The notes beneath the pieces are model-generated. The model was not told the DNA's origin and did no database searches. It worked only from the letters and a program-made list of their open reading frames with translations. A DNA stretch of 42,405 nt from Bacillota bacterium (GTDB lineage: Bacteria > Bacillota > Clostridia > Clostridiales > Clostridiaceae): assembly GCA_030705885.1 (NCBI GenBank), contig JAUZPN010000006.1, positions 1 to 42,405 of the forward strand, read 5' to 3'. The position numbers were made by a program, and so were the translations under genes. Of the stretch, positions 6,090 through 28,490 are shown piece by piece; within the stretch, counting starts at the first letter, position 1; each line of letters starts with the position of its first letter.

Positions 6090-8258
6090 ATGTTAAGAAC
6101 AAAGAAAATTGCTAGCAAAGTTGCAGTTGCTGCTTTAACAGCAAGTATGTCATTGGCTCTTATTCCTTATAATGTTTTTGCAGCTACAACACCTGCACAA
6201 AACACATATCAGCAAAGATTCGAAACAATGTATAAAAAAATTCATACAGCTTCTAATGGATATTTCAATGCAAATGGAGTTCCATATCATTCAGTTGAAA
6301 CATTCATGGTAGAAGCTCCAGACTATGGTCATGAATCTACAAGTGAAGCATTCAGTTACTATATGTGGCTTGAAGCAATGCATGGTAGTATTACAGGAGA
6401 TTTCGCAGGTTTTAAAACTGCATGGGATACTACTGAAAAGTATATAATTCCTTCACATGATGATCAGCCAGCTCAAAATACAACACCTAGTGCAACATAT
6501 GCAGGAGAATATGAAGAGCCTAGCATGTATCCTTCAAAATTTGATAAAAATATAGCACAAGGAACTGATCCACTTTATTCAGAATTAAAATCTGCTTACA
6601 ATACAGGCGATATATACGCAATGCATTGGATTACTGACCCTGATAACTGGTATGGTTTTGGAGCACATGAAGATGGTTCTACATCTCCAGAAAACGTATA
6701 TTTTAACACTTATCAGAGAGGACCACAGGAATCTGTTTTTGAAACAATACCACAGCCTTCTTGGGATGCATTAAAATTTGGTAGCACTGGTGGTGGATTC
6801 TTAACATTATTTACAAATGAAACTGGTGGAAATCCTGCTACTAATACTGCTTCTGTACAATACAAATATACTGAAGCTCCAGATGCTGATTCCCGTGCTG
6901 TTCAAGCAACATATGTAGCATATCAGGCTGCAAAGAAGTATGGAGTAGATTTAAGTGCTCAAGTTGCTAAAGCATCTAAATTAGGAGACTATTTAAGATA
7001 TTCAATGATGGATAAATATTTCAGAGTAATTGGAGATCCATCTAAAGCTGGAACAGGAAAAGATGCAATGCATTATTTACTTTCATGGTATTATGCATGG
7101 GGTGGAGATGCAGGTCCTCAACATGGATGGTCTTGGAGAATAGGCTGTAGCCATATTCACTTTGGATACCAAAACCCACTTGCAGCATATATACTATCAA
7201 CAAATACTGATTTTGAACCAAAATCACAGACAGCTTCAGCTGACTGGTCTACAAGTTTAAAAACTCAAATTCAGTTCTATCAATGGTTACAATCATCTGA
7301 AGGAGCTATAGCTGGTGGTGCTAGTAACTCAAATAACGGAAGATATGAAGCATGGCCAACAGGAACTTCTACATTTGATGGAATGGGATATGTAGAAAAC
7401 CCAGTATACCTAGATCCAGGAAGTAACACATGGTTTGGTATGCAGGTATGGTCAATGCAGCGTATGATTCAATACTATTATGAATCAAAAGATCCTTCTG
7501 TAAAACCATTAATTGATAAATGGGCTAAATGGGCTAATTCTACAATTAAGTTTAATGCAGATGGTACATTCCAAATACCATCAACAATAACATGGAAAGG
7601 TCAGCCTGATACTTGGACAGGAACTGCTTCAGCAAATACAGGATTACATGTTGAGATAGTTGATTATTCAACTGACTTAGGTACTTCTTCTTCACTTGCT
7701 AATGCATTAACATATTATGCAAAGGCTACTGGAGATGCTACATCCAAGAAAAATGCTAAAGAAATTCTTGATAGAATTTGGAACAAATACCAGGATACTA
7801 AGGGTATAAGTTCACCAGAAGCTAAAGACTTCAGCAGAGTATTTAACCAGACTGTATATGTACCAGATGGCTGGACAGGAACATATCCAAATGGTGATAA
7901 GATTCAAACTGGAATTAAATTTATTGATATTAGATCAAAATATAAATTAGATCCAGATTACACAAGAATAAAAGCAGATGTTGATGCAGGAAAATCATCA
8001 ACAATGTACTATCACAGATTCTGGGCACAAAGTGAATATGCAATTGCAAATGCAGTTTATGGACAATTCTTTAATGATGCTGTTAAAGGCGATGTTAATG
8101 GTGATGGTAAAGTAAATGTACTTGACTATTTATTATTAAATAAATATTTAAAGAATACTTCTATTAAGATAAGTACTACAGGTGCTGATGTTAATGGTGA
8201 TGGTTCAATAACTTCTGCTGATTATTCAGCATTAAGAACAAAATTAATTAAAAGATAG
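6090..8258 (+). CDS. GH48 processive cellulase with dockerin (Cel48F-type)
   Basis: The 722-residue secreted enzyme is a family 48 glycoside hydrolase, the processive cellulase that is normally the major catalytic subunit of clostridial cellulosomes. A signal peptide (residues 1-31) is followed by the GH48 domain to about 655. The block VEAPDYGHESTSEAFSYYMW contains Glu75 and Glu86, which probably correspond to Glu44 and Glu55 of C. cellulolyticum Cel48F, the latter being the proton donor. Long conserved stretches such as WGGDAGPQHGWSWRIGCSH support the family. A dockerin begins at about 667; its first repeat contains VNVLDYLLL and the second is the divergent ITSADYSAL. The ATG follows GAGGGAG. 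It is the first gene of the operon and 25 bases precede the next gene. Confidence 0.95.
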   Translation: MLRTKKIASKVAVAALTASMSLALIPYNVFAATTPAQNTYQQRFETMYKKIHTASNGYFNANGVPYHSVETFMVEAPDYGHESTSEAFSYYMWLEAMHGSITGDFAGFKTAWDTTEKYIIPSHDDQPAQNTTPSATYAGEYEEPSMYPSKFDKNIAQGTDPLYSELKSAYNTGDIYAMHWITDPDNWYGFGAHEDGSTSPENVYFNTYQRGPQESVFETIPQPSWDALKFGSTGGGFLTLFTNETGGNPATNTASVQYKYTEAPDADSRAVQATYVAYQAAKKYGVDLSAQVAKASKLGDYLRYSMMDKYFRVIGDPSKAGTGKDAMHYLLSWYYAWGGDAGPQHGWSWRIGCSHIHFGYQNPLAAYILSTNTDFEPKSQTASADWSTSLKTQIQFYQWLQSSEGAIAGGASNSNNGRYEAWPTGTSTFDGMGYVENPVYLDPGSNTWFGMQVWSMQRMIQYYYESKDPSVKPLIDKWAKWANSTIKFNADGTFQIPSTITWKGQPDTWTGTASANTGLHVEIVDYSTDLGTSSSLANALTYYAKATGDATSKKNAKEILDRIWNKYQDTKGISSPEAKDFSRVFNQTVYVPDGWTGTYPNGDKIQTGIKFIDIRSKYKLDPDYTRIKADVDAGKSSTMYYHRFWAQSEYAIANAVYGQFFNDAVKGDVNGDGKVNVLDYLLLNKYLKNTSIKISTTGADVNGDGSITSADYSALRTKLIKR

Positions 8259-8283
8259 TTTATAAAAAGAGGTGTAATACTAA

Positions 8284-9765
8284 GTGAATAAAAAAAGAGC
8301 TTGCTCAATCATTTTACAGTTAATTTTAATAATAACTTTGATTATTCCATCATCAAATGTTTTTGCAGCAACTAATACAACTAATGATGATTATCTCCAC
8401 ACAGATGGAAACAAGATTCTCGATGACAGTGGAAATCAGGTTAGATTGACAGGCATCGCTTGGTTTGGATTTGAAACACCTAATTATTGTTTTCACGGTA
8501 TATGGGCAAATAAGATGGAAAACATTATCGATTTAGTTGCAAATAATGGTTTTAATCTTATGAGAGTTCCATTAAGTGTTGAACTTGTTAATCAATGGCG
8601 CAAGGGTGTTTACCCTGCGCCTGATTCAATGAATGATTACATTAATCCAGAATTAAAAGGAATGAATAGTCTGCAGGTACTTGATGCAACCTTAGCATAT
8701 TGTAATAAAGTAGGACTTAAAGTTATGCTTGATATGCATAGAATTGACTCAGCAGGTCAGACACCAACTTGGTATACAGATAAGTATACCACTGCTGATT
8801 ATGAAGCATGTTGGGAATGGCTTGCAAATCATTATAAGAATGATGATACAGTAGTAGCAATGGATTTATTTAATGAACCTCATGGAAAGGCTTACAGGCA
8901 GGAAACAACTGCAATATGGGATGATTCAACAAATCCAGCTAACTGGAAGAATGAAGCTCAAATTGTAGGAAATAAAATTCTTAAGATAAATCCAAAAATG
9001 CTTATAATGGTTGAAGGTATTGAGACATATCCTAAAGAAGGAAAGACTTATTCATACACAGGTGAAGATGGTTATTATGGATATTGGTGGGGTGGAAATT
9101 TACGAGGAGTAAAGGATCATCCTATTACCCTTTCAGTAAAAAATCAAGTTGTTTATTCACCTCATGACTATGGTCCTAGTGTTTCAGACCAATCATGGTT
9201 TTCTGCTGGATTTGATGAAACTTCATTGACAAAGGATGCATGGATGCCAAATTGGTTATACATTCATACAAACAATATAGCTCCTGTTCTTATTGGTGAA
9301 TGGGGAGGACAAATGGATGGTGGATCTAATCAAAAATGGATGAGTGCACTTGCTGATACAATAGTAAAGAATAATTTAAATCATACATTCTGGTGTTTAA
9401 ATCCTAACTCTGGAGATACTGGTGGTATTTTAGGAAATGATTTTGCAACTGTAGATCAAGCAAAATATGCTCTTGTAAAGCCTACACTATGGGCAGATAA
9501 AACAAGCGGCAAGTTCATAGGCTTGGATCATCAAGTTAATTTAGGAACAACAGGTACACATGTAAAAGGAAATGGAATAGTTCCAGTACTAAATGGTGAT
9601 GTAAATGGTGATGGAAGAGTAAATGTACTTGATTATCTAAAGTTAAAAAAGTACATTGTAAACAAATCTATATCAATAAATACAAAAGCAGGCGACGTGA
9701 ACAATGATGGGGTTATTGATTCTAATGATTTAACAGCACTTAGAAAAGTTCTTTTAACAAAGTAG
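8284..9765 (+). CDS. GH5 (subfamily 1-like) endoglucanase with dockerin
   Basis: The 493-residue protein has a signal peptide (residues 1-28), a GH5 catalytic barrel and a C-terminal dockerin. The segment LTGIAWFGFETPNYCFHGIW is typical of GH5_1 endoglucanases. Glu198 in LFNEPHG is the expected acid/base and Glu339 in IGEWGG the nucleophile; SPHDYGP supplies the conserved His-Tyr. The dockerin has the VNVLDYLKL repeat first and the divergent IDSNDLTAL repeat second. The start codon is GTG at 8284, preceded by GAGGTG at a good distance; no better ATG exists upstream in frame. It lies 25 bases after the GH48 gene in the same operon. The role is endo-cleavage of beta-1,4-glucan outside the cell. 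Confidence 0.92.
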   Translation: MNKKRACSIILQLILIITLIIPSSNVFAATNTTNDDYLHTDGNKILDDSGNQVRLTGIAWFGFETPNYCFHGIWANKMENIIDLVANNGFNLMRVPLSVELVNQWRKGVYPAPDSMNDYINPELKGMNSLQVLDATLAYCNKVGLKVMLDMHRIDSAGQTPTWYTDKYTTADYEACWEWLANHYKNDDTVVAMDLFNEPHGKAYRQETTAIWDDSTNPANWKNEAQIVGNKILKINPKMLIMVEGIETYPKEGKTYSYTGEDGYYGYWWGGNLRGVKDHPITLSVKNQVVYSPHDYGPSVSDQSWFSAGFDETSLTKDAWMPNWLYIHTNNIAPVLIGEWGGQMDGGSNQKWMSALADTIVKNNLNHTFWCLNPNSGDTGGILGNDFATVDQAKYALVKPTLWADKTSGKFIGLDHQVNLGTTGTHVKGNGIVPVLNGDVNGDGRVNVLDYLKLKKYIVNKSISINTKAGDVNNDGVIDSNDLTALRKVLLTK

Positions 9766-9792: not shown

Positions 9793-12003
9793 ATGTTTAA
9801 AATTAAAAGTAAAAAAATGCCATCAATTTTATTATCATCTGCTTTAACTGTATCATTATCATTAACTGCTTTTCCAGCAGTATCAAATGTTTCTTCAACT
9901 GCTTTAGCAGCAACTACAACACCAACACCAGCGTCAAGCAGCAGTACAAATTTTAATTATGGAGAAGCATTACAGAAATCACTAATGTTTTATGAACTAC
10001 AGCGTTCAGGTAAACTTCCAGCTGACAAACGTGATAACTGGCGTGGTGATTCAGGATTAGGTGATGGATCAGACAATGGACTAGATCTTACTGGTGGATG
10101 GTATGATGCAGGTGATAATTGCAAATTTAATTTACCAATGTCTTATTCAGGTGCTATGCTTGGATGGTCTGTCTATGAAAATAGAGATGCTTATGTTAAG
10201 AGTGGCCAGCTAAAGTATGTATTAGGTGATATAAAATGGGTAACTGATTATTTGATTAAATGTCATCCATCACCTAATGTTTATTATTATCAAGTTGGAG
10301 ATGGTGGACTTGACCATAAATGGTGGGGGGCAGCTGAAGTTATGCAGATGGAAAGACCATCATATAAAGTTGATTTGGATAATCCAGGTTCAACAGTAGC
10401 AGGTGAAGCTGCAGCAGAGCTTGCAGTTGCATCAATTATATTCAAATCTACAGATCCAACATACTCAGCAACATGTTTAACTCATGCAAAACAGTTATTT
10501 AGTTTTGCAGATACTACTAAAAGTGATAAAGGTTACACAGCAGCAAATGGATATTATAATTCTTGGAGCGGTTTCTATGATGAACTTTCATGGGCTGGTG
10601 CATGGCTATATTTAGCTACTAATGATAGTACTTATCTTAGTAAGGCAGAATCATATGTTCCTAATTGGCCAACACTTCCTCAAACTACAACAATTGGTTA
10701 TAAATGGGCTCAATGTTGGGATGATGTTCATTATGGTGCTCAGCTTTTACTTGCAAGAATAACAAACAAAGCAATTTATAAAGAATCAGTAGAAAAAAGT
10801 CTTGATTATTGGACTACTGGTTATAATGGTGAAAAAATAAAGTATACTCCTAAAGGACTAGCTTGGATGGATACATGGGGATCTATAAGATATGCAACAA
10901 CTATGGGCTTTTTAGCAGATGTTTATGCTGGATGGTCTGGATGTACACAAACCAAAGTTAAAACTTATAAAGACTTTGCAAAAAGTCAGCTTGATTATGC
11001 TCTTGGCAGCTCAGGAAGAAGTTTTGTAGTTGGGTTTGGAGTTAATCCTCCTCAAAATGAACATCATAGAACAGCACAAGGTTCTTGGTCAGATCAGTCG
11101 ATTGTTCCTGATTATCATAGACATGTGTTATATGGAGCATTAGTTGGTGGTCCAGATTCAACTGATGGCTATGAAGATGTAGTTACTAATTTTACTGAAA
11201 ACGAAGTAGCATGTGATTATAATGCAGGTTTTACAGGTCTTCTTGCTAGAGAGTATGCTGCATATGGCGGAACTCCAATAGCAAATTTCAATGCAGTTGA
11301 AAAAATTACAAATGATGAACTTTATGTTGAAGCTGGTGTAAATGCAGCAGGTCCAAATTTCTGTGAGATAAAAGCTGTATTGAATAATAAAACAGGATGG
11401 CCGGCAAGAGTAACTGATAAACTTTCATTTAGATACTTTATTGATATTAGTGAACTTGTAAGTAAGGGATACTCAGCTAAAGATATAACTGTAAAAACTG
11501 GTTATACAACTGGTGGTACAGCATCACAGCTGATACCATATAATGCTGCTAAAAATATTTATTATGTTAACGTTGATTTTACCGGAACACTAATATATCC
11601 TGGAGGGCAGTCTGCTTATAAGAAAGAAATTCAATTCAGAATGTCTGCACCAGAGAATGTTAATATTTGGGATAACTCAAATGACTTCTCATATCAAGGC
11701 ATTACTACAACACCTGGTGATACACCAGTAGAAACAAAGAATATTTCAGTTTATGATAGTGGTGTTAAAGTATTTGGAAATGAACCAGCTGACAAGCCAG
11801 CATTTTCAGGTGATATTAATGGCGATGGTAAAATTAATATTTTAGATTATCTAAAACTAAAACAATATCTGTCATCAAGTAGTGTGAGTATAAACGTTAA
11901 AAACTCAGATATGAATGGTGATGGAAAAGTTGATACAAATGATTATATATTACTAAGGAAATACTTGCTTGATCCAAAATCAAGCAGAATAAACAATTTA
12001 TAA
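9793..12003 (+). CDS. GH9 endoglucanase with CBM3c and dockerin
   Basis: The 736-residue secreted enzyme has a signal peptide (cleavage near residue 39), a short Thr/Pro/Ser linker, a GH9 domain (about 54-495), a fused CBM3c (about 505-645) and a dockerin (673-736). Asp105 and Asp108 in WYDAGDN form the catalytic base region, and Glu471 in [12 protein letters not shown] is the general acid. CBM3c modules fused behind GH9 feed the chain into the active site and confer processivity in this theme (as in Cel9G). The dockerin order is INILDYLKL then VDTNDYILL. The ATG follows AGGAG, 27 bases after the GH5 gene. Compared with the other GH9-CBM3c gene at 20467 it belongs to a different GH9 branch (GGWYDAGDN rather than GGFHDAGDH). 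Confidence 0.92.
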
Positions 12004-12016
12004 GGGGGATTTATTA

Positions 12017-14767
12017 ATGCTTAAAAAGCGAATTTTAACAAGTGTGCTTTCAGTTATTATGGGTCTTGGTTTAGTTGCACCAACAATTGCACCAATTCAA
12101 GCTTTTGCAACAGATCTCATAAAAACAAGCAATTTTGATGATGGTAAAGGATTACCATGGACAGAAGTTGAAACACCACCTACACATGCAGATTGTGATA
12201 TCAGCGGTGGATTTTATAATTTGACAGCTACTAATATAGCTACAGGTTCTGAAAGATGGGATCTTCAATTCCGTCATAGAGGACTTACAATTATAAATGG
12301 TCATACTTATAATCTTAAATTTACAATTGAAGCAAGTAAGGATTGCCAAATATATGTTAAATTAGGTGAAATGGGCGGAAAATATGCTGAGTTCTGGAAC
12401 TATGGAACTACTGCAGATGACACTCTTGGATGGAAAATGATGCCATTAAAAGGTGGCGTACCAACAACTATTGATACATCATTTAAAGTTGACTTTTCAA
12501 AACAAACACAAGATCCTGATTTAGTTAGTGCTGGTCAATGTACTACATCTGAACTTGCATTCCATCTTGGTGGAATTAATGGAGAGGGTCAGTATACTGG
12601 TGGAATATCATCAAGATCTGATTTACCTATAAAATATTCTTTCAGTGATATTCATCTTATTGATCCACAGGCTCCAACTCCTATACCAGATCCTATTAAA
12701 CCATCAAATGCAATACGTGTAAACCAAGTTGGATATTATCCAAACTTAGAGAAAACTGCAACTTTAGTTACAAAATCAACAACTGCAGTTCCATGGGCAC
12801 TTCACAACAGTGCTGGAACAGTAGTAGCAACTGGTACTTCAAAATTGTATAAAGATTCAGCAACAGGAACAAGTCTTGATAAAGCTTCAGGTGATAAAGT
12901 TCAGATAATTGATTTTTCAAGCTATAAAACTCTTGGAAAAGGATATTATTTAACTGTTGATAATCAATATATAGATCCAACACTTGTGGCAGATTCTACA
13001 CTTCCTGGAGCAACTCTTGCAAAGAGTATGCCATTTAATATTGGTACTGATATTTATACTAAATTAAAGAATGATTCTATTAATTATTTCTATCAAAATA
13101 GAAGTGGTATTGATATAACAATGCCATATTGTGTAAGAGATGATCTTGCTCGTGTAGAAGGAATTAAAGATACAGCATTAAAAAATGTTCCAAGTAGTGG
13201 CTATTCAGGTGATTCTGATACTTATGATGTTGAAAAAGGCTGGTTTGATGCTGGTGACCATGGTAAGTATGTAGTAAATGGCGGTATTTCAGTATGGACT
13301 CTTATGAATGAATATGAAAGAGCATTAAATAGTAGTGATACAAGTTTAGTTAAAAAAGCACCATTTGCAGATGGAACAATGAATATTCCAGAAAATGCAG
13401 ATGGAAAACCAGATATTCTTAATGAAACTCGTTGGGAAATTGAATTTATGCTTGGAATGCAGATTCCAGATGGTACTTATGCTGGAATGGTACATCACAG
13501 TGCACATGACGTATCATGGACAGCACTTTGCACAAGACCAGATCAAGATGATAAGACAAGATATGTATATCCTCCAAGCACACAAGCTACATTAAATCTT
13601 GCAGCAAGTGCAGCACAAGCTTCAAGATTATGGGCAAGCTATGATTCAGATTTTGCAGCTAAGTGCTTAACTGCAGCTAAAGCAGCTTATGTAGCAGCAA
13701 AAGCAAATCCTAAAATGTACTTTAAAACAGGCGGTACTGGTGGTGGAGACTATGGTGATACAAATGCAACTGATGAATTCTACTGGGCAGCATGTGAACT
13801 TTATGCAACTACTAAAGATTCAACTTATTTAACTGATGCTAAATCTTATACAGACAAATATTTACAAATGCCTTCAGGCCTTCAAGGTGGAGAAGATATA
13901 GGCGTTTCTGGAGCATTTGACTGGGGTAATGTTGCTGGACTTGGTACTTTAACACTTCTTACAGCTAAAACAGGTTTATCTACAACTGATATTGCAACAG
14001 CTAAAGCTAATGTTGCAAAAGCAGCAGATGTATTTATTAATACAGAAAATACTCAAGGATATGGTTCACCAATTACTGAAGCACCATTAACAGTATCAAC
14101 TACTGGAGAACAGATTGTTGGATATCCATGGGGATCAAACTCATTTGTTTCAAATGAAGCAATTGTAATGGCATATGCATATGATTATACAAATAATGCG
14201 AAATATGCTAATGGTGTTGCTACAGCATTAGATTACTTATTAGGAAGAAACCCTAATGTACAATCTTATGTAACTGGATATGGTTCAAATCCACTTTTGA
14301 ACCCACATCACAGATTCTGGTCACATGAGGAAGACAGCACTTATCCATCAGCACCTGCTGGATGCATAAGTGGAGGTCCAAACTCAGGACTTGAAGATCC
14401 ATGGGTATTTGGTATGGGCTGGAAACCAGGTGGATATCCAGGTGAAAAGTGCTTTACTGATAATATTGAATCTTGGTCAACAAATGAAATTACAATTAAC
14501 TGGAATGCACCATTATCATGGCTTACAACTTATATGGATTATGCAAAAGTTAATCCAGTTAATGTTATTGGTGATGTAAATAATGATGGAAGAATTAATG
14601 TTCTTGATTATCTATTATTAGGAAAAGCAGTAAATGGTAAAGTTACTTTAACAGGTGACAAACTTAAAAATGCTGATACAAATGCTGATGGAACTATAAC
14701 ATCTGCAGATTTAACAGCTTTAAGATACTACTTAACTCGTAAAGTTAAAGCATTACCATATAAATAA
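12017..14767 (+). CDS. CBM4-Ig-GH9 exo-acting cellulase with dockerin (Cel9E-type), copy 1
   Basis: The 916-residue protein has a signal peptide (1-32), an N-terminal CBM4-type jelly roll (about 33-215), an Ig-like domain beginning at AIRVNQVGYYP (about 230-325), a GH9 domain (about 335-845) and a dockerin (from 852). This is the architecture of Cel9E of C. cellulolyticum and CbhA-type cellobiohydrolases. Catalytic candidates are Asp411 and Asp414 (FDAGDHGKY) and Glu824 in WSTNEITINWNAP. The dockerin order is INVLDYLLL then ITSADLTAL. The gene starts 13 bases after its neighbour, with AAGGGGGA as ribosome binding site. A close paralogue is encoded at 22782-25526; that copy differs at the catalytic acid while this one is intact. 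Confidence 0.93.
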   Translation: MLKKRILTSVLSVIMGLGLVAPTIAPIQAFATDLIKTSNFDDGKGLPWTEVETPPTHADCDISGGFYNLTATNIATGSERWDLQFRHRGLTIINGHTYNLKFTIEASKDCQIYVKLGEMGGKYAEFWNYGTTADDTLGWKMMPLKGGVPTTIDTSFKVDFSKQTQDPDLVSAGQCTTSELAFHLGGINGEGQYTGGISSRSDLPIKYSFSDIHLIDPQAPTPIPDPIKPSNAIRVNQVGYYPNLEKTATLVTKSTTAVPWALHNSAGTVVATGTSKLYKDSATGTSLDKASGDKVQIIDFSSYKTLGKGYYLTVDNQYIDPTLVADSTLPGATLAKSMPFNIGTDIYTKLKNDSINYFYQNRSGIDITMPYCVRDDLARVEGIKDTALKNVPSSGYSGDSDTYDVEKGWFDAGDHGKYVVNGGISVWTLMNEYERALNSSDTSLVKKAPFADGTMNIPENADGKPDILNETRWEIEFMLGMQIPDGTYAGMVHHSAHDVSWTALCTRPDQDDKTRYVYPPSTQATLNLAASAAQASRLWASYDSDFAAKCLTAAKAAYVAAKANPKMYFKTGGTGGGDYGDTNATDEFYWAACELYATTKDSTYLTDAKSYTDKYLQMPSGLQGGEDIGVSGAFDWGNVAGLGTLTLLTAKTGLSTTDIATAKANVAKAADVFINTENTQGYGSPITEAPLTVSTTGEQIVGYPWGSNSFVSNEAIVMAYAYDYTNNAKYANGVATALDYLLGRNPNVQSYVTGYGSNPLLNPHHRFWSHEEDSTYPSAPAGCISGGPNSGLEDPWVFGMGWKPGGYPGEKCFTDNIESWSTNEITINWNAPLSWLTTYMDYAKVNPVNVIGDVNNDGRINVLDYLLLGKAVNGKVTLTGDKLKNADTNADGTITSADLTALRYYLTRKVKALPYK

Positions 14768-14872: not shown

Positions 14873-15472
14873 ATGAAAAAGGGAAAAATAGGTACGTTTA
14901 AAGTTGTTGCAATAATTTTTTTATGTTTACTTGTTGGTGGAGGAATATATTTCTTTACGAATTATCGTATTGTAATACCTGCAAATAGTAATACAAATAA
15001 AAATACAAATACAAGTGCAGTGGCAGATCCAACTAAGAAGCCATCAAGTACAGTAAAAGTTAGTATTGGCTCTGGTGAAGGAAGCGAAGGTAAAACAGTA
15101 ACAATACCAGTGAAATTTAGTTCAGTTCCTAAAAAGGGAATTGATGGGTGTGATTTTAAACTAAAATATGATACAACAGCACTTGAAATGAGTGATGTAC
15201 AGCCAGCTGATATTATCGGTTCTACTAATAAAGATGGTTTTAGTACAGAAAATGATGATACAAATGGTGTTATTAGTGTTTTGTTTATGGATACTACAGG
15301 CAATAGTGCAATAACTAAAAATGGCTCTTTTATGAATATAACTTTTAAAGTTAAAAGTGGAGCAAAAAAGGGAGATTCTAAAATTACTTTAGATTCAGTA
15401 GGTGCCTTCGCTGATAAAGATCTTAATGAAATAGGTACTGATTTTAGTGCTGGAAAAGTAACAATAAAATAA
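14873..15472 (+). CDS. Membrane-anchored single-cohesin protein (OrfXp-like)
   Basis: The 199-residue protein has one hydrophobic segment at residues 10-29 (VVAIIFLCLLVGGGIYFF) with a Lys-rich start. It lacks an obvious signal peptidase site after the helix, so it should remain as an N-terminal membrane anchor. A short Asn/Thr linker leads to one type I cohesin (about 58-199: VTIPVKFSSVP, CDFKLKYDTTALEM, GSFMNITFKVKSGA). This matches the small cohesin protein encoded amid cellulosome enzymes in mesophilic clostridia (OrfXp of C. cellulolyticum). It may hold dockerin enzymes at the membrane or hand them to the scaffoldin. The ATG at 14873 follows GGAAGGAG. A stable hairpin precedes the gene. 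It has no tryptophan and no CBM. Confidence 0.88.
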   Translation: MKKGKIGTFKVVAIIFLCLLVGGGIYFFTNYRIVIPANSNTNKNTNTSAVADPTKKPSSTVKVSIGSGEGSEGKTVTIPVKFSSVPKKGIDGCDFKLKYDTTALEMSDVQPADIIGSTNKDGFSTENDDTNGVISVLFMDTTGNSAITKNGSFMNITFKVKSGAKKGDSKITLDSVGAFADKDLNEIGTDFSAGKVTIK

Positions 15473-19095: not shown

Positions 19096-20382
19096 ATGAG
19101 AAAAAAAATAAGTTCAATAATAATGTCAGTTTTGCTTTTTGTAAGTACGTTTACCTTTAGTAATTTTCAAGCAATATCAGTTAAAGCTGATACAACTTCA
19201 GACAGTACTGCAGGTATAAATTGGATGAATAACTCCAAATATTTTGCACTAGGAGCGAATTATGCCTGGCAGGATTGGGGAAATGATTTTAATGACAATG
19301 GATGGGATCAAAGATATCCTAAATTAAAAGCAACTTTAGATGATATGGCTTCTCAAGGAATACACTCAGTTAGATGGTGGGTATTCTGCAACATGTGGGC
19401 ATCACCTTTGTTTACAAGCACAGATGGTAAAGGTGTATGTACAGGATTACCATCAAAATGGGTGGATCATATGAAAGAAATAACCGATTATGCTTACTCA
19501 AAAGATATGAAAATCTATTATACATTTACAAGCTTCGATGTAGCTACAAATACTAATGATTTTTATCATGGAACTATAATAGATAACTTAGATATTCGTA
19601 AAAGCTTTATTGATAATGCTGTTACTCCAATAGTACAAGGCCTTGGAAATAATCCAGGTGTAATGGGATGGGATATAATAAATGAACCAGAATGGGTAAT
19701 TTCTAGTGCAGATAATGGATGCCCTAATGGAAAATGTACTCCATATAGTTTAGCTACGATGAGATCTTTTGTTAAAGATATGGCTGATTGTATTCATAAA
19801 TATGCTAAACAGCCAGTAAGTGTCGGCAGTGCAAGCATGAAATGGCTTGGAGGACAATATCCTAATTTCTGGGCAGGTCTTGGACTTGATTTCTATGACT
19901 TCCATTGGTATGATTGGGCAACACCTTATTTTAATCCTCTTAAGATTACAGCAGCAAGTTTAAATCTTGATAAGCCAGTAATTATTGGAGAGATGATGCC
20001 TGATTTAAGTACATCTACAGACCCGCAAGTAAAATCAATGACACATGAACAGGTACTTGAAGGCATTTTGAAGAATGGATATGGCGGATATATGCTTTGG
20101 TCTTGGACAGATACAAGCGGATTTAATTGTGAAGGTAAAACGACACCATATTTTGCTGAATTTAAAAACCTTCACCCTGCATTAAATATTGATAATATAA
20201 AAGTAATTACAGGTGATCTTAATGATGACAGCAAAGTTGATAGTGCTGACTATTTATTATTAAAAAATTATTTGATAAACAGAAGTACTAAAATTGATAC
20301 AAAAGCAGCAGATGTAAATAATGATGGTAAGATTAATGTCTTAGATTATCTTAAATTAAGAAGACTAATAATAAATGCATAA
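19096..20382 (+). CDS. GH5-like hydrolase with dockerin, candidate beta-mannanase
   Basis: The 428-residue protein has a signal peptide (1-31), a TIM-barrel glycoside hydrolase domain to about residue 365 and a dockerin. Glu197 in GWDIINEPEW is the expected acid/base, His270 sits in DFHWYDW, and Glu299 in VIIGEMMP is the expected nucleophile, the clan GH-A pattern. The WWVFCNMWASP region differs from the GH5_1 enzyme at 8284. Dockerin-bearing GH5 mannanases occupy a similar place in related clusters, but the substrate is not proven by sequence; a glucanase remains possible. The dockerin is of the reversed type (VDSADYLLL then INVLDYLKL). The ATG at 19096 with AAAAGGTGGG upstream is preferred over a TTG at 19072. 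Confidence 0.85.
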   Translation: MRKKISSIIMSVLLFVSTFTFSNFQAISVKADTTSDSTAGINWMNNSKYFALGANYAWQDWGNDFNDNGWDQRYPKLKATLDDMASQGIHSVRWWVFCNMWASPLFTSTDGKGVCTGLPSKWVDHMKEITDYAYSKDMKIYYTFTSFDVATNTNDFYHGTIIDNLDIRKSFIDNAVTPIVQGLGNNPGVMGWDIINEPEWVISSADNGCPNGKCTPYSLATMRSFVKDMADCIHKYAKQPVSVGSASMKWLGGQYPNFWAGLGLDFYDFHWYDWATPYFNPLKITAASLNLDKPVIIGEMMPDLSTSTDPQVKSMTHEQVLEGILKNGYGGYMLWSWTDTSGFNCEGKTTPYFAEFKNLHPALNIDNIKVITGDLNDDSKVDSADYLLLKNYLINRSTKIDTKAADVNNDGKINVLDYLKLRRLIINA

Positions 20383-20466: not shown

Positions 20467-22659
20467 ATGAAAAAATGTATTGCTATTGTTGTAGCTGCAG
20501 CTGTTTTAGCAACATCATGCGTGTTCCCGGTAAGTAGTTCAACTAGAGCAGAAGCAGCTGTGACTACAACATCTGTAACACCAACAATTAAACCAACAGC
20601 TTCGCCGACACCAACAGCTAAATTAACATCTTCACCAACACCAGCCTCAACTATATCTACATCAACTCTAGTTGCAGCAAACTATAACTATGTAGATGCT
20701 TTTGCAAAATCGATTTTATTTTATGAAGCTAACTGGAGTGGTCCTGATGCAGGAAATAACAGACTAAAATGGAGAGGACCATGCGATTTAACAGATGGTA
20801 AAGATGTAGGAGTAGACTTAACAGGAGGTTTTCATGATGCAGGTGATCATGTAAAATTTGGACTTCCAGAGGCATATGCAGCATCAACCTTAGGATGGTC
20901 ATATTATGAGTTTAAAGATGAATTTGCAAAGAGTGGACAAGATAAATATATGCTTAATATATTAAAACACTTTACAGATTATTTTCTAAAAAGCTATGTA
21001 AACAAAACTACATTTTATTATCAATGTGGTGATGGAACTTTAGATCATTCATATTGGGGACCTCCAGAACTTCAAACAACAGAACGTCCTACACTGTTTG
21101 TAGCAACACCTGAAACACCAGCTTCTGATGTGTGTGGAAATACAGCTGCTGCACTTGCACTTATGTCAATAAACTACAAATCAGTAGATCCAGTTTATGC
21201 AGCAAAATGTTTAACAGCAGCAAAAGATTTGTTCAGCTTTGGTGATAAATACAGAGGTTTAAGTAAAAGCGGAGGTTTTTATGAAGCTTCAGGATATATT
21301 GATGATTTATGCTGGGGAGCAATATGGCTTTATCTAGCTACAAATGACAATACTTATTTAACAAAGGTTGATTCATTACTTGCGGAAAAAGGAATAACTG
21401 GTGATAATTCTTATTCAAATCACTGGACACACTGTTGGGATGATGTATTTGGTGGTGTATTTGTAAAACTTGCTCAAATAACATCAAATCCAAAATATAA
21501 AGCAATAGCAGAAGAAAATCTTAATTATTGGATGAGCGGAGTTCAGACTACTGCTGGAGGACTAAAATATATTAATTCATGGGGAGCATTAAGGTATACT
21601 GCAGCTGAGTGTTTAATGTCTGTTGTATATTATAAGACATCAAAGCAGCAAAAGTATTTAGATTTTGCAAAAGGGCAGATAAACTATATGCTTGGAACGA
21701 ATCCAGAAAAAATGTCGTATGAAGTTGGTTTTGGAACTAATTATCCTAAATTCCCTCATCATAGGGCAGCAAGCGGAAGAATGGAATCAGCACCAGCATA
21801 TGAAAAGAAAACACAGCCTGAGAAACATTTATTATATGGAGCATTAGTTGGAGGACCTAGTGATGATGATACTTATGTTGATGATGTTGATGAGTATGAA
21901 CATTCAGAGGTTGCTATAGATTATAATGCAGGATTTGTGGGTGCACTTGCAGGTGTATCAAATTATTATGGTGCAGATCAAAAGCCTCTTCCAACACCAG
22001 GTATTGAACCAACAACTTCACCTATTTTTGTTGAAGCAAATGTAATGAAGGAAGATACTCAGGGAATTACAATACAAGCATTTATTCATAATGATGCATC
22101 TCTTCCACCTCATTATGAAAGCGGGTTATCATTTAGATATTTTGTTGATTTAACTGAATACTATGAACATGGAGGTTCAGTTGATGATTTAACAGCAGAA
22201 GTAAATTATGGACCAAATGGCGGTCAAATATCTAAACTTATTCCTTGGGATAAGACAAAGCATATTTATTATATTGAAGCAAGCTGGCCAACCAGTGAAA
22301 TTTATGGAAAGCTAGAATTTCAGTTTGTAATAGCTGGGTATAATTTGAAGTGCTTCGACTCAACCAATGATTTTTCAAGAAAAGGATTAACCTCACTTAC
22401 AAATACTATTAGCAGCTATATACCAGTTTATAAAAATGGAATTAAAGTATTTGGCAGTGAACCTAGTAACTCAAATATTATAGTTGGTGATCTTAATGGA
22501 GATCATAAGGTCAATGTTTTAGATTACTTGAAATTAAAAAATTATTTAGCAAAGCCAAGCGGAACTGTTGATACAAATGTATGGGATATCAATAAAGATG
22601 GTATAATTAATATCAACGATTATGCTGCACTTAGAAAATTACTTTTAAGTAGAAAATAA
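20467..22659 (+). CDS. GH9 endoglucanase with CBM3c and dockerin (Cel9G-type)
   Basis: The 730-residue protein has a signal peptide (cleavage near residue 30), then an unusual Thr/Pro linker of about 35 residues, a GH9 domain (about 74-510), a CBM3c (about 518-645) and a dockerin (from 674). Asp124 and Asp127 in FHDAGDHVKF and Glu481 in EHSEVAIDYNAGF are the catalytic residues. The dockerin order is VNVLDYLKL then ININDYAAL. The N-terminal linker joins the signal peptide directly to the catalytic domain, as if an N-terminal module had been lost. The ATG follows TGGGGGA. It is preceded by a hairpin at 20401 and followed by one at 22707. Confidence 0.92.
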   Translation: MKKCIAIVVAAAVLATSCVFPVSSSTRAEAAVTTTSVTPTIKPTASPTPTAKLTSSPTPASTISTSTLVAANYNYVDAFAKSILFYEANWSGPDAGNNRLKWRGPCDLTDGKDVGVDLTGGFHDAGDHVKFGLPEAYAASTLGWSYYEFKDEFAKSGQDKYMLNILKHFTDYFLKSYVNKTTFYYQCGDGTLDHSYWGPPELQTTERPTLFVATPETPASDVCGNTAAALALMSINYKSVDPVYAAKCLTAAKDLFSFGDKYRGLSKSGGFYEASGYIDDLCWGAIWLYLATNDNTYLTKVDSLLAEKGITGDNSYSNHWTHCWDDVFGGVFVKLAQITSNPKYKAIAEENLNYWMSGVQTTAGGLKYINSWGALRYTAAECLMSVVYYKTSKQQKYLDFAKGQINYMLGTNPEKMSYEVGFGTNYPKFPHHRAASGRMESAPAYEKKTQPEKHLLYGALVGGPSDDDTYVDDVDEYEHSEVAIDYNAGFVGALAGVSNYYGADQKPLPTPGIEPTTSPIFVEANVMKEDTQGITIQAFIHNDASLPPHYESGLSFRYFVDLTEYYEHGGSVDDLTAEVNYGPNGGQISKLIPWDKTKHIYYIEASWPTSEIYGKLEFQFVIAGYNLKCFDSTNDFSRKGLTSLTNTISSYIPVYKNGIKVFGSEPSNSNIIVGDLNGDHKVNVLDYLKLKNYLAKPSGTVDTNVWDINKDGIININDYAALRKLLLSRK

Positions 22660-22781: not shown

Positions 22782-25526
22782 ATGGTCAAAAAACGTATTT
22801 TAACAGGTTTACTTTCAGTTATTATGAGTCTTGGTATATCATCTCCAATTGCAAATATTCAAACTTTTGCAAGTACTGAACTTTTAAAGGTATCTGATTT
22901 TACTGATGGTACAGGATTACCATGGACAGAAGTTGAAACGCCGCCTTCACATGCAGATTGTGATATAAGCGGCGGAAGCTATAATATAAAAATTACTAAT
23001 GTAGCTACAGGATCTGAAAGATTTGATCTTCAATTTCGTTACAGGAATCTTACAATTATGAATGGATGTACCTATAGCATTAAATTTACAGTTAAGGCAG
23101 ATAAAGACTGCCAGATATATCCTAAACTAGGCGAATCAGGCGGTAAATTTGCTGAGTTTTGGAATTATGGAACTACTGCAGATGATACTCTTGGATGGAA
23201 AATGATGCCATTAAAAGGTGGCGTACCAACAACTGTTGATACAACATTTAAAGTTGATTTCTCAAAACAGACACAAGATCCTGCTTTAGTTGGAGCTTCT
23301 GAATGTCCTGGATGTGAAATTGCATTTGAGCTTGGCGGAATAAATGGAGAAGGTCAGATTGCTGGTGGTATATCATCAAGAAGCGATTTACCTATAACAT
23401 ATTCTTTTAGCGATATTCACCTTCTTGGTCCGTCTCCTGATATACCACCTATTGAATTACCATCGAATGCAATACGTGTAAACCAAGTTGGATATTATCC
23501 AAGCTTAGAAAAGACTGCAACTTTAGTTACAAATTCAACAGATCCAGTCCCATGGCAGCTTCACAATAGTGCTGGAACAGTAGTAGCAACTGGTACATCA
23601 AAAATATATAAAGATTCAGTAACTGGAACAAATGTTGATAAAGCTTCAGGGGATAAAGTTCAGATAATTGATTTTTCAAGTTATAAAACTGTTGGAAAAG
23701 GATACTATCTAACTGTAGATAGTAAGTATATAGATCCAACGCTTATAGCAAGTACTACAGTTGCTGGAGCAACTCTTGCAAAGAGTATGCCATTTGATAT
23801 TGGTATGGATATTTATACTCAATTAAAGAAAGATTCTATCAATTACTTCTATCAAAATAGAAGTGGTATTGATATAACAATGCCATATTGTGTAAGAACT
23901 GATCTTGCTCGTGTAGAAGGAATTAAAGATATTGCATTAAAAAATGTTCCAGACAGCGGTTATACAGGTGATAATGATACTTACAATGTTGAAAAAGGCT
24001 GGTTTGATGCTGGTGACCATGGTAAGTATGTAGTAAATGGCGGTATTTCAGTATGGACTCTTATGAATGAATATGAAAGAGCATTAAATAGTACTGATAA
24101 AACTTTAGTAACAAAAGCACCATTTGCAGATGGAACAATGAATATACCAGAAAATGCAAATAAAATACCTGATATTCTTGATGAAACACGATGGGAAATT
24201 GAATTTATGCTTGGAATGCAGATTCCAGATGGCACTTATGCTGGAATGGTACATCACAGTGCACATGATGTATCATGGACAGCACTTTGCACAAGGCCAG
24301 ATGAAGATTATCAAACTAGATATGTTTATCCTCCAAGTACACAAGCTACATTAAATCTTGCAGCAAGTGCAGCAGAAGCAGCAAGATTATGGAAGAACTA
24401 TGATTCAGCTTTTGCATCAAAGTGTTTAACTGCAGCTAAAGCAGCTTATACAGCAGCAAAAGCAAATCCTACTATGTACTTTAAAACAGGCGGTGATGGT
24501 GGTGGAGACTATGCTGATACAAATACAACTGATGAATTCTACTGGGCAGCATGTGAACTTTATGCAACTACTGGAGATTCAACTTATTTAGCAGATGTTA
24601 AAACTAGTGATAAATATTTACAAATGCCTACATCTCTTATAGGTGGGGAAGATATAGGAAGCAATGGAGCATTTGACTGGGGTAACGTTGCTGGACTTGG
24701 TACTTTAACACTTGTTACAGCTAAAAATAGTTTGCCATTTACTGATATTGTAACAGCTAAAGCTAATATTGCAAAAGCAGCTGATTCATTTATAAGTACA
24801 GAAAATACTCAAGGATATGGATCAGCAATTACTGAAGCACTAATGACAGTTTCAACTACTGGAGAAAAAATTACTGGATATCCGTATGAATCAAATTCAT
24901 ATATTGAGAATGAAGCAATTGTAATGGCTTATGCATATGATTTTACGGGAAATGTAAAATATATAAATGGTGTTGCTGAAGCAATGGACTATTTGATGGG
25001 CAGGAATCCAAATATACAATGTTATGTAACAGGATATGGTACAAATGCACTTAAAAATCCGTATCACAGATTCTGGTCATATCAGGAAGATAACACATAT
25101 CCACAAGCACCTGCTGGATGTATAAGTGGAGGCCCTAACTCAGGACTTGAAGATCAATTGGTGTATGGTTTGGGTTGGAAAGCATATACAAGACCAAGTG
25201 AAAAGAACTTTACTGATAATATTGAATCATGGTCAACTAATGATGTTTCAATTAACTTGAATGCACCATTATCATGGCTTACAAGTTATATGGATTACTC
25301 AGTACCTTATCCCCCTATACCTTCTATTGGCGATGTAAATACTGATGGAAAGATTAATGTTCTTGATTATCTATTATTAGAAAAAGCAGTAAATGGTAAA
25401 GTTACTTTAACAGGTACTAAACTTAGGAATGCTGATACAAATGATGATGGAACTGTTACATCTGCAGATTTAACATCTTTAAGAAACTACTTAATTCATA
25501 AAGTAAAAGCATTACCATCTAAATAA
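22782..25526 (+). CDS. CBM4-Ig-GH9 enzyme with dockerin, copy 2, with altered catalytic acid
   Basis: The 914-residue protein is a close paralogue of the product of 12017-14767, with the same order: signal peptide, CBM4, Ig-like, GH9 and dockerin (INVLDYLLL then VTSADLTSL). The base motif is kept (Asp409 and Asp412 in FDAGDHGKY). The conserved general acid is changed: the motif reads STNDVSINLNAP with Asp821 in place of Glu and Leu826 in place of Trp, against STNEITINWNAP in copy 1. Shortening the acid side chain usually cuts GH9 activity strongly, so this copy may be slow, inverted in preference or mainly a binding protein. The reading frame is otherwise intact and codon use is unchanged. 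It is the last gene of the operon and is followed by a strong terminator. Confidence 0.92.
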   Translation: MVKKRILTGLLSVIMSLGISSPIANIQTFASTELLKVSDFTDGTGLPWTEVETPPSHADCDISGGSYNIKITNVATGSERFDLQFRYRNLTIMNGCTYSIKFTVKADKDCQIYPKLGESGGKFAEFWNYGTTADDTLGWKMMPLKGGVPTTVDTTFKVDFSKQTQDPALVGASECPGCEIAFELGGINGEGQIAGGISSRSDLPITYSFSDIHLLGPSPDIPPIELPSNAIRVNQVGYYPSLEKTATLVTNSTDPVPWQLHNSAGTVVATGTSKIYKDSVTGTNVDKASGDKVQIIDFSSYKTVGKGYYLTVDSKYIDPTLIASTTVAGATLAKSMPFDIGMDIYTQLKKDSINYFYQNRSGIDITMPYCVRTDLARVEGIKDIALKNVPDSGYTGDNDTYNVEKGWFDAGDHGKYVVNGGISVWTLMNEYERALNSTDKTLVTKAPFADGTMNIPENANKIPDILDETRWEIEFMLGMQIPDGTYAGMVHHSAHDVSWTALCTRPDEDYQTRYVYPPSTQATLNLAASAAEAARLWKNYDSAFASKCLTAAKAAYTAAKANPTMYFKTGGDGGGDYADTNTTDEFYWAACELYATTGDSTYLADVKTSDKYLQMPTSLIGGEDIGSNGAFDWGNVAGLGTLTLVTAKNSLPFTDIVTAKANIAKAADSFISTENTQGYGSAITEALMTVSTTGEKITGYPYESNSYIENEAIVMAYAYDFTGNVKYINGVAEAMDYLMGRNPNIQCYVTGYGTNALKNPYHRFWSYQEDNTYPQAPAGCISGGPNSGLEDQLVYGLGWKAYTRPSEKNFTDNIESWSTNDVSINLNAPLSWLTSYMDYSVPYPPIPSIGDVNTDGKINVLDYLLLEKAVNGKVTLTGTKLRNADTNDDGTVTSADLTSLRNYLIHKVKALPSK

Positions 25527-25577: not shown

Positions 25578-25628
25578 AAGTAAAATTCAAACAAATAGTA
25601 AGTAAATAATGAACATATTATATAGTTT

Positions 25629-25650
25629 ATTAAGTAATAAATTACTTAAT
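25629..25650. promoter_or_regulatory. Perfect 10-bp palindrome upstream of the GH74 gene
   Basis: ATTAAGTAAT and ATTACTTAAT are separated by AA. It lies just upstream of the GH74 promoter region and is a plausible operator for a dimeric regulator. No regulator gene is adjacent. Confidence 0.45.
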
Positions 25651-25655
25651 AAAAT

Positions 25656-25707
25656 TTGAAATTGTTTTCATAAAACTATTTTATTTTAAATTGCTTTATG
25701 ATATAAT
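25656..25707 (+). promoter_or_regulatory. Probable GH74 promoter region with cre-like box
   Basis: TATAAT at 25702-25707 is preceded by only a weak -35 (TTTTAT at 25679). TTGAAATTGTTTTCA (25656-25670) matches the cre consensus except that the central CG is TG. It would lie about 45-58 bases upstream of the start site. Promoter presence is likely because a terminator separates GH74 from the operon; CcpA control here is tentative. Confidence 0.4.
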
Positions 25708-25877
25708 GTTAATGGTAATAAGTTCTCATAAATTTTAATGCTTATAATTTTTATCTTTTTAAATTATGTAATTTTTAAGAGGATTTTTTTATTTTTAAGA
25801 TGATTAAAATATATTATTATTTACGAAGTTTTAGTTAATTTGGTAATTATAAAATTATTTAGGGGAGGAATAAACTT

Positions 25878-28490
25878 ATGAAAGGCATTATTAGTAAAAA
25901 AGTTGTTGCAGCAACTGCGGGTATAGCTTATTTATTATCTTTAGCATCATTTACCACAGCATCTGCACCAAAAACTGCTGTTGTTAACAAGGTTTTAACA
26001 ACAACAGGTGTAGTAAATAGTCAAGCTTACAATTTTAACAATGTAAAAATTACAGGAACAGGTTATATACCTTCAGTAATTTTTAATCCAACAGAAAAAG
26101 ATTTAGTTTATGCAAGAACAGATATGGGCGGTGCATACAGATGGGACAAGACAACGAGCACATGGAAGCCATTAACAGACTGGGCGGGTTTTGATGATTG
26201 GGACTTTTTGGGCTGCGAAAGTATAGCAACAGATCCTATTGAAACTAATAGGTTATATATTGCAGCTGGTACTTACACAAACAGCTGGAGTCCTAATAAT
26301 GGTTATATATTAAGATCTACAGACAAAGGAAATACATTTCAGAAAACACAGCTTCCATTCAAGTTTGGCGGAAACATGCCAGGAAGAAATGCTGGTGAGA
26401 GACTTGTAATAGATCCAAATGATGATAAAATTTTATATTTAGGAGCAAGAAGCGGAAATGGACTTTGGAGAAGTACAGATTATGGTGTTACATGGTCTCA
26501 GGTAACAAGTTTCCCTGATCCGGGAAATTATGTAAAAGACCCTTCTTTACCATACACTGCAGATAAACTTGGAATACTTTGGGAAGTATTTCAGCCAACT
26601 ACTGAAGCAAAAGGAACACCTACACAAACAATATATGTAGGAGTTGCAGATAATGATACTACAAGCAATAATATTTATTGCTCAACAGATGGAGGTAAAA
26701 CTTGGAAAGCACTTGCTGGACAACCTCATGGAATACCTGCATCTGCAGATGGTTCTGTTAAAGCTACTGGATTTCTTCCTCATCATGGAGTTCTTTCTTC
26801 AAATGGAAATCTATATATAACATACAGTAATACAGATGGACCTTATGATGGTTCACTTGGTGCAGTGTGGAAATATGATACTAAGGCTAAAACTTGGACT
26901 GATATTAGTCCAGTACCTGCAATTAAAGATGGTAAAGTTAATGCTGATGAATATTATGGTTATGGTGGACTAGCAGTTGATGCACAGCATCCAGATACTA
27001 TAATGGTAACTACATTAAATTCTTGGTGGCCTGATGCAAATATCTTCAGAAGTACAGATGGTGGAAAGAGTTGGTCATCAATATGGTCTTGGAATGGATA
27101 TCCAGATAGAACTTTGCGTTATACTCAAGATATTTCAGCATCACCTTGGCTTACTTTTGGTGCAAAACCAAGTACAGATGTTAGTAATGGTATTGCTCCA
27201 AAACTTGGGTGGATGATAGGCGATATAAAAATAGATCCATTTAATTCAGATCATATGTTATATGGAACAGGAGCAACACTTTATGGTTCAGATAATCTTA
27301 CAGATTGGGACAAGGGAACAAAGATTACAATTTCAGTTAAAGCTCAGGGAATTGAAGAATCAGCAGTACTTTCTTTAGCAGTGCTTCCATCTGGAACATT
27401 AATGAGTGGTATTGGTGATGTAAATGGATTTAAGCATGATGATATAACAAAATCACCTACTGATATGATTCCATTTGGTGCTTCAACTACAAGTTTAGAT
27501 TACGCAGAGCTTAAGCCGTCATTTTTAGTACGTGTTGTAAATCCTGATACTAATCATCCTAACCAGAAATGTTCGTCCTATACTTATGATGGCGGGTCAA
27601 ACTGGTTTAATGGAAATGTTGATATACCAGGAATGACTGGTGGAGGTACAGTAGCAGCAGCAGCTGATGCAAGTTTAGTTTTGTGGGCTCCTGATGGAGG
27701 TGCTGTTAGTTATTCAAAAGATAATGGAAACTCATGGAAAGCAAGCACAGGTATACCTCAAGGAGTAAAAGTTGCTTCTGACCGTGTAAATCCAAAGAAA
27801 TTTTATGGATTTGGAAATGGTAAATTTTATGTAAGTGTAGATGCTGGCGTATCATTTACTGAGTCAGCTGCAACAGGTCTTCCTTCATCAGCTAATATTA
27901 AAGCTGTTCCAGGTATTGAAGGAGATATATGGTTAGCAGGTGAAGATGATACTGTAAAAGGTATGTGGCATTCAACAGATTCAGGTGCTACATTTACAAA
28001 GTTATCAAACGTTGATGCATCTGATACAGTTGGATTTGGTAAAGCAGCACCAGGGAAAACTTATATGGCAGTATATACAAGTGCAAAGGTAAATGGTGTG
28101 CGTGGTATATTCCGTTCAGATGATGCAGGTAAATCATGGATAAGAATAAATGATGATCAGCATCAATATGGCTGCACAAATGCATGTATTACTGGAGATC
28201 CAACTAGATATGGAAGAGTTTATATAGGTACAAATGGACGTGGTATAATATATGGCGATATATCACCAGCACCTGTTTTAATAGGAGATTTAAATGGTGA
28301 TAAGTTAATTGATACAAATGACTATACACTTTTAAAGAAATATCTTATTAGATCAATAAAGAGTTTCACTGTAAGTAATGGTTCTACAGCAGCTGATGTT
28401 AATGGTGATGGAAAGATTAATGTATTAGATTATCTTATGATGAAAAATTATATTAATAAAAAAATTACTAAATTCCCAGCTCAAAAATAA
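25878..28490 (+). CDS. GH74 xyloglucanase with dockerin
   Basis: The 870-residue secreted protein has a signal peptide (1-30), a GH74 double beta-propeller to about residue 795, and a dockerin. Asp82 in ARTDMGGAYRW and Asp606 in WAPDGGAVSYS fit the two catalytic aspartates of the family, and repeated Asp-box motifs (RSTDGGKSW, RSTDYGVTW, YSKDNGNSW) are present in the propellers. GH74 enzymes cut the xyloglucan backbone. The dockerin is of the reversed type: IDTNDYTLL first and INVLDYLMM second, joined by a longer linker than in the other enzymes. The ATG follows AGGGGAGG. It is transcribed alone, between the operon terminator and its own terminator. Similar Asp-box proteins are often annotated as sialidase-like. 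Confidence 0.93.
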   Translation: MKGIISKKVVAATAGIAYLLSLASFTTASAPKTAVVNKVLTTTGVVNSQAYNFNNVKITGTGYIPSVIFNPTEKDLVYARTDMGGAYRWDKTTSTWKPLTDWAGFDDWDFLGCESIATDPIETNRLYIAAGTYTNSWSPNNGYILRSTDKGNTFQKTQLPFKFGGNMPGRNAGERLVIDPNDDKILYLGARSGNGLWRSTDYGVTWSQVTSFPDPGNYVKDPSLPYTADKLGILWEVFQPTTEAKGTPTQTIYVGVADNDTTSNNIYCSTDGGKTWKALAGQPHGIPASADGSVKATGFLPHHGVLSSNGNLYITYSNTDGPYDGSLGAVWKYDTKAKTWTDISPVPAIKDGKVNADEYYGYGGLAVDAQHPDTIMVTTLNSWWPDANIFRSTDGGKSWSSIWSWNGYPDRTLRYTQDISASPWLTFGAKPSTDVSNGIAPKLGWMIGDIKIDPFNSDHMLYGTGATLYGSDNLTDWDKGTKITISVKAQGIEESAVLSLAVLPSGTLMSGIGDVNGFKHDDITKSPTDMIPFGASTTSLDYAELKPSFLVRVVNPDTNHPNQKCSSYTYDGGSNWFNGNVDIPGMTGGGTVAAAADASLVLWAPDGGAVSYSKDNGNSWKASTGIPQGVKVASDRVNPKKFYGFGNGKFYVSVDAGVSFTESAATGLPSSANIKAVPGIEGDIWLAGEDDTVKGMWHSTDSGATFTKLSNVDASDTVGFGKAAPGKTYMAVYTSAKVNGVRGIFRSDDAGKSWIRINDDQHQYGCTNACITGDPTRYGRVYIGTNGRGIIYGDISPAPVLIGDLNGDKLIDTNDYTLLKKYLIRSIKSFTVSNGSTAADVNGDGKINVLDYLMMKNYINKKITKFPAQK

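Follow-up and report, generated by a model that had tools for sequence, protein, structure and literature searches.

Repeat order in the dockerins of a cellulase gene cluster

The dockerins encoded in a cip-cel type cellulase gene cluster of a cellulose-degrading member of the Clostridiaceae each pair one repeat of a conserved recognition motif (A) with one repeat of a different signature (B), in the order A-B or B-A, and complementary halves of the two repeats are conserved. Judged from these sequences, each dockerin probably possesses one composite cohesin-binding site, such that the A-B and B-A forms would adopt single poses about 180 degrees apart.

The window (the whole stretch of DNA analysed, 42,405 nucleotides) contains, in order, genes for a putative scaffoldin, GH48, GH5, GH9-CBM3c, CBM4-Ig-GH9, an OrfX-type cohesin protein, GH44, GH9, GH5, GH9-CBM3c, CBM4-Ig-GH9, GH74, and later GH26, followed by a GH10-like open reading frame truncated by the window end. 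The host genome is a 3.0-Mb draft in 249 contigs (78% complete), in which a Pfam profile search located 22 Dockerin_1 (PF00404) domains, 11 of them in the window. All 22 score above the profile cut-off, which together with two F-hand calcium loops bearing Asp or Asn at positions 1, 3, 5, 9, and 12 defines a type I dockerin; D1 and D12 are invariant in all 44 repeats.

Repeats were assigned by positions 10/11 and 13/14. The A motif is K/R7-N9-V10-L/F11-D-Y13-L14, with VL or the near forms IL and VF at positions 10/11 in all 11 window dockerins; the corresponding residues of the B repeats are, in window order, SA, SN, TN, SA, IK, NT, SA, IN, SA, TN, and EN. As originally predicted, one repeat of each kind is present in every window dockerin (11/11), and the predicted orders are borne out gene by gene: A-B in GH48, GH5 (8284), both GH9-CBM3c, both CBM4-Ig-GH9, and GH26 (40256), and B-A in GH44, GH9 (17371), GH5 (19072), and GH74 (Table 1). 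The genome-wide comparison proposed with that prediction extends the asymmetry to 9 of the 11 dockerins outside the window, of which 8 are ordered A-B and 3 B-A (contigs C219, C12, and C4, the A repeat of the latter two being degenerate, AN/VN-DYL), so that the draft genome holds 15 A-B and 7 B-A dockerins. An unsupervised division of the 44 repeats into two clusters assigns one repeat to each cluster in 20 of 22 dockerins (permutation P about 1e-4), or in 19 of 22 if positions 10, 11, 13, and 14 alone are used (P about 7e-4), P values on host dockerins being indicative only because related paralogues are counted as independent.

Table 1. Dockerin repeats and cohesin-bearing proteins encoded in the window.
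Feature	Assignment	Position	Strand	Sequence or Pfam match
Putative scaffoldin	CBM3-Coh-X2-X2, single cohesin	3548..5209	+	CBM_3, Cohesin, 2x CBM_X2
Putative scaffoldin, cohesin module	candidate partner	4166..4567	+	PF00963, 75 bits
GH48 repeat 1	A (VL/YL)	8091..8159	+	DVNGDGKVNVLDYLLLNKYLKNT
GH48 repeat 2	B (SA; R17, I21)	8187..8255	+	DVNGDGSITSADYSALRTKLIKR
GH5 (8284) repeat 1	A	9598..9666	+	DVNGDGRVNVLDYLKLKKYIVNK
GH5 (8284) repeat 2	B (SN; R17, L21)	9694..9762	+	DVNNDGVIDSNDLTALRKVLLTK
GH9-CBM3c (9793) repeat 1	A (IL)	11812..11880	+	
GH9-CBM3c (9793) repeat 2	B (TN; R17, L21)	11908..11976	+	
CBM4-Ig-GH9 (12017) repeat 1	A	14573..14641	+	DVNNDGRINVLDYLLLGKAVNGK
CBM4-Ig-GH9 (12017) repeat 2	B (SA; R17, T21)	14675..14743	+	DTNADGTITSADLTALRYYLTRK
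OrfX-type protein, N-terminal hydrophobic segment and one cohesin	candidate partner	14873..15472	+	PF00963, 122 bits
GH44 repeat 1	B (IK; R17, L21), reversed order	17164..17232	+	DLNSDGIIDIKDYAILRDMILKR
GH44 repeat 2	A (VF)	17260..17328	+	DVSKDGKINVFDYLILKNYLAGK
GH9 (17371) repeat 1	B (NT; R17, L21), reversed order	18898..18966	+	DLNKDGVVNNTDLALLRNYLLNH
GH9 (17371) repeat 2	A (VL), protein terminates at repeat position 22	18994..19059	+	DVNKDNKINVLDYLKLGKIIKS
GH5 (19072) repeat 1	B (SA; K17, I21), reversed order	20215..20283	+	DLNDDSKVDSADYLLLKNYLINR
GH5 (19072) repeat 2	A (VL; also R17, I21)	20311..20379	+	DVNNDGKINVLDYLKLRRLIINA
GH9-CBM3c (20467) repeat 1	A	22489..22557	+	DLNGDHKVNVLDYLKLKNYLAKP
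GH9-CBM3c (20467) repeat 2	B (IN; R17, L21)	22585..22653	+	DINKDGIININDYAALRKLLLSR
CBM4-Ig-GH9 (22782) repeat 1	A	25332..25400	+	DVNTDGKINVLDYLLLEKAVNGK
CBM4-Ig-GH9 (22782) repeat 2	B (SA; R17, I21)	25434..25502	+	DTNDDGTVTSADLTSLRNYLIHK
GH74 repeat 1	B (TN; K17, I21), reversed order	28287..28355	+	DLNGDKLIDTNDYTLLKKYLIRS
GH74 repeat 2	A (VL)	28395..28463	+	DVNGDGKINVLDYLMMKNYINKK
GH26 repeat 1	A, beyond the range of the original prediction	40256..40324	+	DINGDNRINVLDYLLLSRYLLNN
GH26 repeat 2	B (EN; R17, I21)	40352..40420	+	DINNDGLIQENDKILLRQILICR

Among the dockerins outside the window, contig C219 (L034:2045-3901) encodes an RHS-repeat protein, an unusual cellulosome cargo, with an N-terminal B-A dockerin, and contigs C217, C12, and C4 (L038, L039, L040) encode leucine-rich repeat (BspA-type) proteins, the dockerins of C12 and C4 being short with a decayed A repeat.

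Complementary conservation of the two repeats

The divergence first attributed to the B repeat holds at positions 10, 11, and 14, but not in the C-terminal half of its helix, which is conserved: across the host genome, B repeats possess R17 in 19, L16 in 21, L20 in 20, and L/I21 in 20 of 22 cases, whether B is the first or the second repeat. In the A repeats residues 17 and 21 vary, and positions 10, 11, and 14 of B together with 17 and 21 of A are the least conserved recognition positions, mostly polar. The N-terminal half is intact in 19/22 A repeats and 0/22 B repeats, and the C-terminal half in 19/22 B repeats and 2/22 A repeats. The face comprising A10, A11, A14, B17, B18, and B21 has an entropy of 7.05 bits among host dockerins, versus 13.87 bits for the opposite face; in the symmetric dockerins of R. 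papyrosolvens the two faces are equal (5.35 and 5.84 bits).

The combination of K/R17 with an aliphatic residue at 21, a marker outside the A/B definition, is confined to the B repeat in 17 dockerins and to the A repeat in none (P = 1.5e-5), and it shifts place with repeat order, being in the second repeat of 11/11 informative A-B dockerins and the first repeat of 6/6 informative B-A dockerins (counts 11, 0 and 0, 6; P = 8e-5; both values again indicative). The recognition residues of A-B and B-A dockerins can be aligned only after exchange of the N- and C-terminal halves, two independent markers being reversed together. The hydrophobic triad of positions 10 and 14 in one repeat and 21 in the other (10+14+21') is complete in site 1 of 11/15 A-B and 0/7 B-A dockerins, and in site 2 of 6/7 B-A and 0/15 A-B dockerins. 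One composite is complete in 17/22, neither in 5/22, and both in 0/22, and in the 17 dockerins the complete composite always agrees with repeat order. Completeness of one composite interface is what a single binding mode requires of the sequence, and the near-identical recognition residues in both repeats that accompany a dual binding mode are absent from the host dockerins. Several dockerins fit less well: GH5_19072, with K/R17 and I21 in both repeats, and CBM4GH9_12017 and the dockerins of contigs C222, C79, C176, C217, C12, and C4, each of which is missing one signature residue.

A predicted composite site and its structural precedents

The original prediction that contact with the cohesin is likely made by the A repeat alone finds no support: R17 and L/I21 are retained in B, and in a solved complex position 21 sits in one cohesin pocket together with position 10 of the opposite helix (PMC5934362). 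Because the helices run antiparallel across the cohesin, each would begin beside the end of the other, and the predicted site consists of A positions 10, 11, and 14 at a helix start and B positions 17 and 21 at the antiparallel helix end. An internally symmetric dockerin would have two such composites and hence a dual binding mode; one composite appears to have decayed in every host dockerin, the survivor being formed by the N-half of repeat 1 with the C-half of repeat 2 in A-B dockerins, and by the N-half of repeat 2 with the C-half of repeat 1 in B-A dockerins. With one of two composites gone, the A-B and B-A poses would differ by about 180 degrees, each a single fixed orientation on the same cohesin, and the extent to which the enzyme is turned would depend on its linker. 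The A code is shared by both orders, and both are therefore likely to bind the same cohesin. Loss of binding upon mutation of B would be compatible with a single mode of this composite kind.

The predicted single mode with two opposite orientations survives as an inference, in that the residues retained match those of solved single-mode complexes. In R. flavefaciens DocScaA, the dominant binding residues are Val-662 and Val-666 (11 and 15 in that numbering, 10 and 14 here) together with Val-721 on the other helix; Val-662 and Val-721 occupy one cohesin pocket, their symmetry mates are polar, and the mode is single (PMC5934362). Val-721 corresponds to position 21 if Asn-661 is taken to be the calcium ligand at position 9, with Thr-709 its symmetry mate. 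The hot spots of RfDoc1a, Ile-39 and Val-43, map to positions 10 and 14 through the 5m2o alignment. DocCel48 of B. cellulosolvens binds through contralateral composites, either Met17 with Phe60 or Met50 with Phe27. Counter to a single site, a dockerin of C. acetobutylicum, a member of the host's GTDB family, is reported to use both sites, switched by pH.

Candidate cohesin partners

The putative scaffoldin gene occupies the place of a primary scaffoldin upstream of GH48. The OrfX-type cohesin and its counterpart in R. papyrosolvens OrfX share 45% identity, and the cohesins of the scaffoldin and of contig C205 are about 30% identical to the OrfX-type cohesin, so that at least two divergent cohesin types are present. 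The C205 protein (L041:6534 onward) is a scaffoldin paralogue with the architecture Coh-X2-X2 and one cohesin. The partner cohesin is uncertain because the 78% complete draft has three cohesins, one per protein, versus 22 dockerins; no multi-cohesin scaffoldin for the 22 dockerins was found in it. Either the system genuinely works with one cohesin per scaffoldin, or the draft assembly has a gap or has collapsed cohesin sequence.

Symmetric, fixed-order, and mixed-order dockerins in other genomes

The host dockerins resemble the dual-binding type I dockerins of C. cellulolyticum and R. papyrosolvens in fold, calcium loops, recognition positions, and gene cluster, but the repeats of the latter are symmetric at positions 10, 11, 14, 17, and 21 (A10, L/I11, K17, and L21 in both repeats of Ruminiclostridium dockerins), whereas the host exhibits complementary loss. 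The nearest genomes compared belong to the same GTDB family as the host. A relative in that family (G207, C. acetobutylicum genus) has VL/VL at 10/11 in most dockerins, which demonstrates that the symmetric VL state exists in the host's family; VN/VL in its GH74 and a GH5 enzyme (L047, L048) is a possible intermediate state.

The host GH48 shares 66% identity with its counterpart in C. acetobutylicum (G024), one of whose dockerins is letter-for-letter that of PDB 6kg9. The pH-switch dockerin of this relative (6kg8-6kgf) comes from a related cluster with orthologous enzymes and has poses related by 180 degrees, but unlike host dockerins it is symmetric (GR/GR at 10/11) and reportedly uses both sites according to pH; the Gly-Arg pair that characterizes it is absent at 10/11 from all 22 host dockerins. 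Among the G024 dockerins (L042, L043, L044), which have Gly-Arg at 10/11 of both repeats, R17 is in the first repeat of 8 and the second of 2, the latter being those of GH74 and CBM4-GH9, which amounts to a concealed reversal of order at this position.

Asymmetric dockerins of a fixed order occur in all 22 cases from three C. saccharoperbutylacetonicum-like genomes, and in 9/9 each of G103 and G123. The C. saccharoperbutylacetonicum dockerins (XXQK/TARK), of the same family as the host, were proposed to have a single mode (PMC7157769), and their asymmetry had been remarked on with no function assigned to it; unlike the host, they show no reversal. Mixed order recurs in two other Clostridiaceae lineages, G028/G159 (split 5 and 2) and Clostridium sp. 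SIG253 (G104; split 6 and 3). The conserved pair of G104 is VK, located in the other repeat type, and A could therefore not be treated as the universal donor of the conserved residues at 10/11. With the VK repeat in second place, its helix stops at position 20 (6/6), and with VK in first place, the other repeat is of full length (3/3), which is the pattern the composite model would predict for a repeat with a dispensable C-half. A second repeat that ends at helix position 20, without the usual end of helix 3, is found in several Clostridiaceae (G103, G123, G104, L064-L093; L022).

Reversed single-mode sets are already known. In the rumen Ruminococcus, R. flavefaciens groups 3 and 6 are likewise two asymmetric dockerin sets in one organism with recognition residues reversed between repeats, reported to be single-mode sets of the same specificity that bind one cohesin in reversed modes; there they are distinct sequence groups, mainly of hemicellulases, that bind an adaptor scaffoldin, unlike the host orders, which share one recognition code and alternate inside one cip-cel type cluster, GH48 and GH9 included. 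A comparable reversal, in a lineage different from that of the host, is cited for groups 3 and 4 of Ruminococcus champanellensis in PMC5301203. The open-licence literature searched yielded no account of both orders occurring together in a clostridial cip-cel cluster, and what seems new here is the spread of reversed sets over one classical clostridial cellulase cluster.

Alternative readings of the second face and of repeat order

If both faces were to bind the same cohesin through different residues, perhaps switched by pH, dual binding would be retained. Such switching of sites is reported for C. acetobutylicum (6kg9/6kgc/6kge), and GH5_19072 has C-half residues in both repeats, but the pH-switch dockerin keeps identical residues at 10/11 of both repeats where the corresponding host positions vary, the entropy of the second host face is twice that of the first, and its triad is complete in no dockerin, making this reading unlikely. 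Still less probable is recognition of different partners, the A face binding the scaffoldin cohesin and the second face the OrfX or C205 cohesin: divergent cohesin types do exist in the genome, and type II dockerins of dual specificity have been described, but a second specific face would be expected to be conserved, and its positions are the least conserved of all. The single composite site is preferred over both.

As to how the two orders arose, the most likely course is that dockerins descended from a symmetric ancestor lost one site in some enzymes and the opposite site in others. A physical exchange of repeats by recombination is a lesser possibility, favoured by the likeness of A2 to A1 at recognition positions (0.59, versus 0.60 among A1 repeats); however, outside these positions repeats do not clearly group by role over place, the third-codon identity of A1-A2 (0.69) is no higher than that of A1-B1 (0.69) or A2-B2 (0.74), which also disposed of recent gene conversion, and the paralogues GH9CBM3c_20467 (A-B) and GH9_17371 (B-A) have co-linear linkers (GTVDTNVWDINKD and GTIDKSIWDVNKD). 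The balance tilts slightly towards orientation being inconsequential, with long linkers permitting either pose and random drift deciding which site survived. CBM4-GH9 is A-B in the host and B-A in G028/G159 and G104, GH44 and GH74 are B-A in the host and A-B in G028, GH5 is A-B in the host and B-A in G104, and the host GH74 (B-A) has an A-B homologue on contig C112. This lack of conservation among orthologues and paralogues rules out enzyme type as the cause of order and argues against an enzyme-specific orientation code; R. flavefaciens, moreover, assembles with single modes only. On the other side, the pair G028/G159, both members of one genus, has its single reversed gene (CBM4-GH9) in common. 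A code in which chosen enzymes are opposed so that neighbouring catalytic domains face different sides, both orders being under selection, is quite improbable. Order is also not tied to the place of the dockerin in the protein, N-terminal dockerins being of both orders (C73 and C112b A-B, C219 B-A), and nothing was inferred from the adjacency of the B-A genes GH44, GH9, and GH5 (5 runs in 11 genes; 6.1 expected). Most simply, loss could affect either site, and the link between pose and enzyme type is not a strong one.

Implications

These dockerins bear on the question why two docking poses are kept in most cellulosomes. In the host and in two related lineages each enzyme seems to have given up one pose, whichever of the two, while a single recognition code is shared, which provides a natural enzyme set for testing the effect of pose on assembly or activity. 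A simple sequence rule (positions 10 and 14 in one repeat combined with 17 and 21 in its partner) would predict single or dual mode and its direction, and dockerins of orthogonal pose may serve as parts for designer cellulosomes.
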